A stretch of 64,000 nt of DNA. Origin: Sipunculus nudus. Its lineage: Eukaryota > Annelida > Sipuncula > Golfingiida > Sipunculidae. Where the stretch lies: positions 67,398,453 to 67,462,452 of the forward strand of contig CM049311.1 in NCBI GenBank assembly GCA_026874595.1, in the 5' to 3' direction. The first letter of the stretch is position 1; each line of letters starts with the position of its first letter. The notes beneath the pieces are model-generated. The model was given only the letters and a program-made list of their open reading frames with translations, was not told where the DNA came from and did no database searches. Both the position numbers and the translations under genes were made by a program. Shown here piece by piece: positions 50,201 to 57,358 of this stretch.

Positions 50201-53200
50201 TCGGCGTTCTGGACCACGAATGCTTCCAAACAGTCGACCTTTACGAACAACAGAATCTGTTCCAAGTCACAGTCTGCCTCCTGTCACTCGGACGCAAAGT
50301 AAGGGTCACAGTATAAAATATTATAATATAAAAGGTAATTAGATAACAGAACCTTTCATTAGAGTGAAAATTGAGATATTGCAAACTTTTTGTAAAATAA
50401 GTGAATATTCTTCACATAAACTATTATTCGACTATAAATGGCAAATACTTATGGAAAATGCTTGGTACCTCACATTTAAAATTAAATCAACAAAGTTAGA
50501 GTTAAATCAAGAGTTTGTATATTAAAATGAATTCTTTAATTGTATCCCCAGACAAAGTCGGGGGATACTATGTTTTCATACCGGTCCCGCCGCCGCCGCC
50601 GCCGCCGCATATAAATCTTATTGGCGCGATAACCCAAAAAATATTTCACGGAACTTTACCAAACTTGGTATATGTATAGATATGGGTAAGAGGACGACGC
50701 CTATTTAAAATGAGGTCATGACCTGTACTAGGAGAGTGTCCTTGACCTTGAATAGGTCCAATTTTGGGGAAAATCACACAAATTCTTTAATATCTCAAGA
50801 AATCTTGCATGGATTTATCCCAAAATCAACTTGATGGAAGATCATGGATAGGGTTGTCATGTTCCAGAAACTGGTGGCGCCACCTATTATTCTTTACTTG
50901 TTTTCGTGCCGTTTAATACCCCTAAAATTGCCACCTTACAGTACTGTGAGCATTATAAGTCAAAAACTAATGGACAGATTTCTTTTATATTATGCATATA
51001 CATAGGTATGGGTTATGGGTTGATGTTTATTTAAATTGGGGTCTTGACCTTGAATATTGCCATATATGATGAAAATCACACACCTCTTATGATATCTCCA
51101 GTGTTGATAGCCATATGGATTTCAAACATGACTTATGTATGGCCCACCACTAAAGTAAACACCCATAGGTTCTAGGGTCATGAGGTCAAAGGTCAAGGTC
51201 ACTGGACTGGCATTTTAAAAGATACTGTGGATGCATTTTAAGCCAAACTTTCATCCTAGGTCTTCCATCTTGAATATATAGCTCACTTGCCAATAGTGGA
51301 TGATCCATATCAATTTTGGGGTCACAAGGTCAAAGGTCAAGGCCACAGGAGCTATCTGTCCAAAAATTAGTTTATGGATGATAATTCCTGCTTTTATCGA
51401 TGTATTGATTTCAAACTTGACTTATATATGTCCCACTGAAAAAGCAAGACTCCACTTGATTTTGGGGTCATGAGGTCAAAGGTCAAGGTTACTGGACTGG
51501 CATTTTAAAAGATACTGTGCATGCATTTTCAGCCAAACATTTAATCTCAGACCTTTCATCTTGCACATATAAGTCATCTGCCAATAGAGGAAGACCCCTA
51601 TCAGTTTTGAGGTCACAAGGTCAAAGGTGAAGGTCACAGGAGCCATCTGTCCAAAACTTAGTTCCTGGATGATAATTCCTGCTTTTATTGATTTATGGAT
51701 TTCAAACTTGACTTGTATATGTCCCATTGGAAAAGCAAGACCCATATTGATTTTGGGGTCATGAGGTCAAAGGTCAAGGTCACAGGACACATCTTTAAAA
51801 AGATTGTGGATGCATTTTCAGCCAAACATTTCATCTCAGGTCTTTCATCTTGCACATATAGTTCACCTGCCAAGAGAGGGAGAACCCTATCAATTTTGAG
51901 GTCACAAGGTCAAAGGTGAAGGTCACAGGAGCCATCTGTCCAAAAATAAGTTTCTGGATGATAATTCCTACTTTTATTGATGTATGGATTTCAAACTTGA
52001 CTTGTATTTGACCCATTGGAAAAGCAAGACCCAAATTGATTTTGGGGTCATGAGGTCAAAGGTCAAGGTCACAGGAAAACTCTTTAAAAAGATTGTGGAT
52101 GCATTTTCAGCCAAACAATTCATCTCAGATCTTTCATCTTGCACATATAGTTCACTTGCCAAGAGTGGAAGACCCCTATCAATTTTGAAGTCACAAGGTC
52201 AAAGGTGAAGGTCACAGGAGCCATCTGTCCAAAAATTAGTTTCTGGATGATAATTCCTGCTTTTATTGATGTATGGATTTCAAACTTGACTTGTATATGT
52301 CCCATTGGAAAAGCAAGACCCAAATTGATTTTGGGGTCATGAGGTCAAAGGTCAAGGTCACAGGACACATCTTTAAAAAGATTGTGGATGCATTTTCAGC
52401 CAAAAATTTCATCTCAGATCTTTCATCTTGCACATATAGTTCACCTGCCAAGAGAGGAAGAACCCTATCAATTTTGAGGTCACAAGGTCAAAGGTGAAGG
52501 TCACAGGAGCCATCTGTCCAAAAATTAGTTTCTGGATGATAATTCCTGCTTTTATTGTATCCCCAGACAAAGTCGGGGGATACTATGTTTTCATACCGGT
52601 CCCGCCGCCGCCGCCGCCGCCGCCGCCGCATATGAATCTTATTGGCGCGATAACCCAAAAAATATTTCACGGAACTTTACCAAACTTGGTATATGTATAG
52701 ATATGGGTAAGAGGACGACGCCTATTTAAAATGAGGTCATGACCTTTACTAGGAGAGTGTCCTTGACCTTGAATAGGTCCAATTTTGGGGAAAATCACAC
52801 AAATTCTTTAATATCTCAAGAAATCTTGCATGGATTTATCCCAAAATCCAGTTGATGGAAGATCATGGATAGGGTTGTCATGTTCCAGAAACTGGTGGCG
52901 CCACCTATTATTCTTTACTTGTTTTCGTGCCGTTTAATACCCCCTAAATTGCCACCTTACAGCACTGTGAGCATTATAAGTCAAAAACTAATGGACAGAT
53001 TTCTTTTATATTATGCATATACATAGGTATGGGTTATGGGATGATGCTTATTTAAATTGGGGTCATGACCTTTCCTATGATAGTGGCCTTGACCTTGAAT
53101 ATTGCCATATATGGTGAAAATCACACACCTCTTATGATATCTCCAGTGTTGATAGCCATATGGATTTCAAACATGACTTATGTATGGCCCACCACTAAAG

Positions 53201-57358: not shown

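Follow-up and report, generated by a model that had tools for sequence, protein, structure and literature searches.

Dozens of AGGTCA words, arranged as direct repeats, crowd one intron of a calponin/transgelin-type gene of Sipunculus nudus, which raises the question of whether they serve the gene, the mobile element that carries them, or neither. We addressed this question in a window of 64,000 nucleotides that contains the intron, and in copies of the repeat elsewhere in the same genome.

Two nested Helentrons occupy the intron

On the plus strand, the exon at 50083–50298 encodes the second half of a CH domain (PF00307, E=2e-8 on 50083–50310), while the exon at 57182–57358, an open reading frame with a stop at its end, carries a calponin repeat (PF00402, E=1.3e-12), indicating that the gene is of the calponin/transgelin type. 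The intron between these Pfam-supported exons (50299–57181) runs from GTAAGG to TTTGTAG, and gene, mobile elements and AGGTCA clusters all share one strand. The original prediction had named intron 3 of an actin-binding gene; the intron and the kind of gene stand, but the number 3 is unsupported, and the candidate upstream exon at 46148–46324 matched no Pfam family.

A single Helitron-like element had been proposed at 50542–56601. We found the element in place with its position 1 bp off (50541–56600) and assigned it to the HINE/Helentron type, but it proved to be two nested elements rather than one. By pattern search, the outer non-autonomous Helentron (HINE) begins with TGTATCCCC and ends with CTAGT|T on the plus strand, spanning 6060 bp with the inner element and 2597 bp without it. 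The inner HINE (52556–56018, plus strand, 3463 bp) lies between T and T within one unit of the outer element's array. When its 40-bp flanks were joined and compared with the intact units at 52227 and 51938, 78 of the 80 bases were equal, indicating that the inner HINE, the only element covered by this empty-site comparison, entered T|T without target duplication, as HINEs do.

The two nested elements share their start, TGTATCCCCAGACAAAGTCGGGGGATAC, and their close, in which AAGAAATGTCTAGT comes after the palindrome GGCACCTGCGGTGCC. Direct reading of the outer 5′ end (50541–50574) gave the subTIR GTATCCCCAGACA and then the inverted repeat GTCGGGGGATAC. At the 3′ ends, the inner element has the tail of a subTIR copy (TGTCTGGAGATAC, one mismatch), the palindrome and CTAGT at 55979–56018, and the outer element has part of a subTIR copy (TGTATGGGGATAC, one mismatch), the palindrome and CTAGT at 56561–56600. 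A third plus-strand copy of the family, with both ends present (62069–63933), has the perfect copy TGTCTGGGGATAC. The family therefore shows the HINE arrangement of a 5′ subTIR with complementary inverted repeat and a matching 3′ subTIR, and in both nested copies the palindrome stands 14 bp before the 3′ end, again as in HINEs. Two further HINE features are a microsatellite of the inner head, (CCG)n at 52602–52629 with 9.3 copies by TRF, and the satellite-like central array of period 289.

AGGTCA-type words are also present in the heads, for which TRF gives a repeat of 328 bp. In the outer head, the palindrome AGGTCATGACCT and words of the form CTTGACCT lie at 50713–50748 on the plus strand, and across five aligned heads GGTCATGACC was invariant, as were several stretches without the word. 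Elsewhere in the window the family has left a minus-strand copy, whose 3′ end is at 6937, and, at 48155, a 5′ fragment.

The AGGTCA clusters belong to the 289-bp unit

Matches of the unit by nhmmer and BLAST placed 289-bp units with AGGTCA clusters on the plus strand at 51183–52555 in the outer array, which is split by the inner HINE and restarts with its last units at 56019, and at 53229–55846 in the inner array. TRF reported period 289 with 18.2 copies over 51175–56422, a span within which the inner element's head falls. Each unit is made up of two halves, about 145 bp long, that have diverged from each other. Cluster A reads AGGTCA-A-AGGTCA-AGGTCA, that is, DR1 plus DR0 with TCAAGGTCA within, as in the plus-strand example AGGTCAAAGGTCAAGGTCA at 51764–51782. 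Cluster B, read directly at 51899–51925 on the plus strand, is AGGTCA-CA-AGGTCA-A-AGGTGA-AGGTCA, with a DR2 and a DR1-like spacing. The words that had been claimed for the two halves (DR1, DR0, DR2 and TCAAGGTCA) are thus exactly those in the sequence. At 60047–60641 there are divergent relatives of the unit, spaced at about 145 bp, that retain the AGGTCA cluster.

The window contains 198 AGGTCA words, a roughly sixfold excess over 100 dinucleotide shuffles, which averaged 31.7 and never exceeded 45. Within 50541–56600 there are 91 words on the plus strand and 7 on the minus strand, which bears out the dozens of half-sites claimed for the intron, and neighbouring plus-strand words are spaced at 1 bp (17 times), 0 bp (15), 2 bp (10) and 7 bp (12). 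Across the window there are 18 exact copies of the 19-mer AGGTCAAAGGTCAAGGTCA (shuffle mean 0.00), and the 14 occurrences inside the host intron agree with the claim of more than ten. Copies in tandem do not count as independent observations, so the proper measure is the unit consensus, which has six AGGTCA per 289 bp; six or more of some hexamer arose in 23 of 20,000 mononucleotide shuffles of the unit.

The same clusters are abundant throughout the genome

Words were then counted across 1.43 Gb in 153 contigs. The 19-mer AGGTCAAAGGTCAAGGTCA occurs 22,468 times and its reversed control not at all; a non-motif 19-mer from the same unit occurs 9,647 times. For TCAAGGTCA the count was 143,597 against 10,426 for the reversed word, a 13.8-fold difference, to which spacings of about 320–330 bp among the matches listed, together with the 328-bp head repeat, suggest that HINE heads contribute. 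With direct-repeat half-sites in the family consensus and an excess over the control, these words have the sequence properties expected of repeat-borne nuclear-receptor sites and are candidates for such sites. The original prediction had cautioned that the pattern might be intrinsic to the repeat, and this caution was justified: the clusters are in the unit consensus and have tens of thousands of occurrences elsewhere. These results demonstrate that the family's 289-bp unit includes the clusters and that they arrived with the HINE insertions. At G000:C1:1405488-1421921, runs of 19-mer matches recur every 2.6–2.9 kb or so, which looks like tandem duplication of a whole element. One match of the 19-mer in viral contigs, in a GC-rich phage-like contig, was taken as chance.

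We also considered whether every HINE-type array contains AGGTCA, and rejected this on a random sample of 20 loci of 10 kb from the same genome. Among its 21 array rows, some of them overlapping, AGGTCA was present in the unit of 7 and CAAGGTCA in 2, indicating that HINE-type arrays in general do not need CAAGGTCA. The density of AGGTCA in these 200 kb was 2.0 per kb in tandem arrays (44 in 22.1 kb) and 0.71 per kb outside them (127 in 177.9 kb). One random locus (L016, 7–9999) is nearly all a period-376 array of 26.5 copies whose unit lacks AGGTCA.

Two other array families in the window, of period 301 (19928) and period 144 (35051), contain TGACCTTGAAAA...TCAAGGTCA-like words and have HINE-like ends that, judged by eye, are unlike those of the main family. 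The former belongs to a minus-strand HINE-like element at 19597–21265, its ends also set by eye, where TGACCTTGAAAA...AGGTCAAGGTCA-like words lie in the period-301 array and TAGGTCAAC in an array of period 179. The period-144 array (35051–35785) has GTGACCTTGAAAAATGCGTCAAGGTCA; next to it are a terminus of the GTCCCCCGCC type and a stretch of (GACG)n, and by eye it is HINE-like.

Shared variants are depleted in the clusters

To compare the clusters with the rest of the unit, we fetched units by two non-motif anchors so that the motif did not choose the copies, and excluded the anchor columns. Set Y comprised 48 units from 15 loci and set X 79 units from 16 loci; the combined 127 units from 31 loci all come from the opening 8.3 Mb of contig C1, one stretch having been taken from each of 31 groups of matches that were picked by hand from the first 100 matches listed per anchor. 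In the combined set, private variants, found in one or two loci, numbered 43 in the 46 cluster columns (0.93 per column) and 185 in the 179 remaining columns (1.03 per column). Variants shared by at least three loci numbered 8 in the clusters (0.17 per column) versus 108 in the rest (0.60 per column), giving a Fisher p value of 0.0035, and of 0.0063 at two other shared/private cut-offs. Taken separately, cluster A gave p values of 0.015 to 0.019 and cluster B of 0.07 to 0.14. With all substitutions counted, the clusters had fewer than the remainder of the unit in 14 of 15 loci of one set and in 16 of 16 of the other. Among 289 windows of 19 bp, cluster A came 10th by all substitutions, 7th by shared variants and 85th by private ones, and the longest stretch free of shared variants lay on it in set Y at the cut-off printed and, at every one of three cut-offs, in set X and the combined set.

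Where copies had been retrieved by non-motif segments alone, identity to the consensus was 92.0% (1261/1371) in the clusters versus 85.8% (2386/2782) in the segments used for retrieval. At least two RGKTCA half-sites, a half-site class given in PMC1785376, were kept in 108 of the 109 units covering cluster B, where the common shared variants A136G and G155C keep or make RGKTCA and G145A, G153A and T160C do not. Two further comparisons are leads only, as their copies were chosen by the motif: 30 units, mostly from the window and from 19-mer matches, and seven half-units centred on the motif, in which the identity of the word was 0.88 versus 0.49 for the rest.

Other comparisons did not single out the clusters. 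With flanks fixed, cluster A was intact in 6,612 of 9,566 copies genome-wide (69.1%) and a control block, the best conserved non-motif 19-mer, in 5,833 of 8,125 (71.8%), so the notion that the 19-mer is kept better than any control was rejected; being the best conserved, the control block makes for a hard comparison, yet cluster A is not uniquely protected. Among the first 100 matches listed for each, the clusters had 52 substitutions in 1900 bases versus 32 in 1881 for the control (p=0.036), one unrelated place having been dropped from the control and some places being local duplicates. When circular shifts served as the control, so that differences in rate along the unit were taken into account, significance was not reached at cut-off 3 (set Y, 13/215; set X, 40/227; combined, 19/191). 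Private variants were fewer in the clusters than in the rest in set X (p=1e-5), equal in set Y (p=0.46) and not significantly different in the combined set (p=0.195); the depletion in set X is not predicted by a simple reading of neutrality after insertion. At least two blocks of the unit are well kept, the clusters being one of them. As for the outcome that the original prediction had named as refuting it, AGGTCA words mutating as fast as the rest of the unit, the answer is divided: they do so by private variants in the combined set and by the flank-conditioned intact fraction genome-wide, but not by variants in at least three loci, which avoid the clusters.

These mixed results bear on a neutral account, in which the clusters are an accident of the unit's origin, a micro-tandem duplicated with the unit, were made uniform by homogenisation and chance, and bind nothing important. 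Gene conversion between units could mimic lineage constraint, and homogenisation by this route is its main rival. The flank-conditioned fractions, the shift controls, the further conserved blocks of the unit and the scarcity of CAAGGTCA in random arrays all agree with neutrality. It is opposed by the depletion of shared variants at equal private input, by the persistence of the word in halves A and B and in divergent copies whose remainder is about half identical (in the biased half-units above), and by the presence of TCAAGGTCA in two other window families with different ends. Weighing both sides, we hold the neutral account to be possible but somewhat doubtful.

Constraint may act on propagating lineages

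The contrast between shared and private variants led us to infer that the clusters have been constrained in propagating lineages, with copies decaying afterwards without detectable selection. A host protein reading AGGTCA would then bind the array to the element's advantage, for instance through the opening of its chromatin. The simplest reader would be a nuclear receptor (ERR, FTZ-F1, HNF4 or RXR type), perhaps acting in the germ line; a receptor is proposed as the reason for constraint because the words are of the AGGTCA type and because the genome encodes nuclear-receptor DNA-binding domains (67 PF00105 matches, as exon pieces). Taken as a whole, this reading, of nested HINEs with clusters constrained while lineages propagate, free decay after insertion, a receptor-type host reader and a passive passage in the gene, seems to us evenly balanced between holding and failing.

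A different benefit to the element would arise if the clusters were signals for its own replication or for array growth, acting through a Helentron Rep/helicase or through recombining short direct repeats, with no host receptor involved. The words occur in the head, in the array and in several families, and the tandem direct-repeat spacing offers ready homology for recombination. Against this, the inner HINE entered at TTTTAT|TGATG, away from the clusters, which are therefore not its insertion site, and none of the present results connects Rep to AGGTCA. We consider such a signal unlikely.

Use by the host gene would make the intronic array an enhancer, receptor sink or boundary, as the original prediction had envisaged; no tested feature points to such a local role. 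Host use would be in keeping with the intronic position of the DR1 and DR2 consensus words, with the in vivo recruitment of RARs by Alu DR2 sites (PMC1785376) and with the binding of HNF4 to Alu (PMC3252374). However, private variants in the combined sample are as common inside the clusters as outside them, the same array is found genome-wide, and for sinks little effect was estimated in the normal hepatocyte (PMC3252374). Host use thus appears very improbable, and the array in this gene is most likely a passive passenger.

Extending constraint in propagating lineages beyond one family, several Helentron families may independently keep receptor docking sites since germ-line chromatin opened by receptors would aid their spread, and more than 100,000 putative SF-1/ERR-type sites would have been sown as a DNA-transposon counterpart of Alu-DR2. 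We offer this broader idea as a speculative and rather doubtful one. If the clusters are indeed under constraint in propagating lineages, the family would be an example, at the level of sequence, of a non-autonomous Helentron that relies on a host transcription factor, there would be a ready explanation for the keeping of one short core in some satellite-like arrays, and any AGGTCA-reading receptor in the animal would meet well over 100,000 extra sites. Comparing shared with private variants is, in addition, a cheap general test that separates element-level from host-level selection on repeat motifs.

Comparison with known systems

We found no report of receptor sites in Helentrons among the matches listed from the open-licence literature. 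The closest carrier is Cg_HINE of the Pacific oyster (PMC7492417), with which our elements share the 5′ subTIR and complementary inverted repeat, the microsatellite, the central satellite-like array, the 3′ subTIR and palindrome, T-rich or TT insertion without target duplication, and occurrence in non-coding regions of genes. Cg_HINE monomers are mostly 140–180 bp, in contrast to the 289-bp unit here, and AGGTCA clusters go unmentioned in the Results and first part of the Discussion of that paper; set against Cg_HINE, the present locus adds nesting demonstrated at the base level. Like DINE-1 and other Helentrons (PMC4067079), our elements have subTIRs near both ends, a 3′ palindrome within the stated 8–35 bp of the end and T-rich insertion, but the 3′ subTIR lies 32 bp from the end rather than about 38–60 bp as in DINE-1.

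The ISX helitron of Drosophila miranda (PMC4384637) likewise scatters the motif of a chromatin protein (MSL recognition) and undergoes gene conversion among copies; there, function, binding and selection were shown, whereas the evidence here is that of sequence. In general pattern, the units resemble the bivalve satellites BIV160/Cg170 (PMC5139131), which diverge except for two short conserved motifs and are tied to transposable elements.

Among repeats that spread receptor sites, the nearest parallel is Alu, in which, as here, consensus nuclear-receptor sites have been dispersed on a scale of about 100,000. The human genome has 108,582 consensus DR2, several bound by RARs in ChIP (PMC1785376), a number similar to the 143,597 TCAAGGTCA words found here. 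Alu also has HNF4 sites, with a sink role that is discussed and considered doubtful (PMC3252374). Alu is a SINE whose DR2 arose largely from CpG deamination and for which binding was shown by ChIP, whereas the present words are predicted sites in the unit consensus of a DNA transposon. The HINE carrier is already known as a kind, from the oyster Cg_HINE, and its load of receptor-type sites resembles that of human Alu-DR2.
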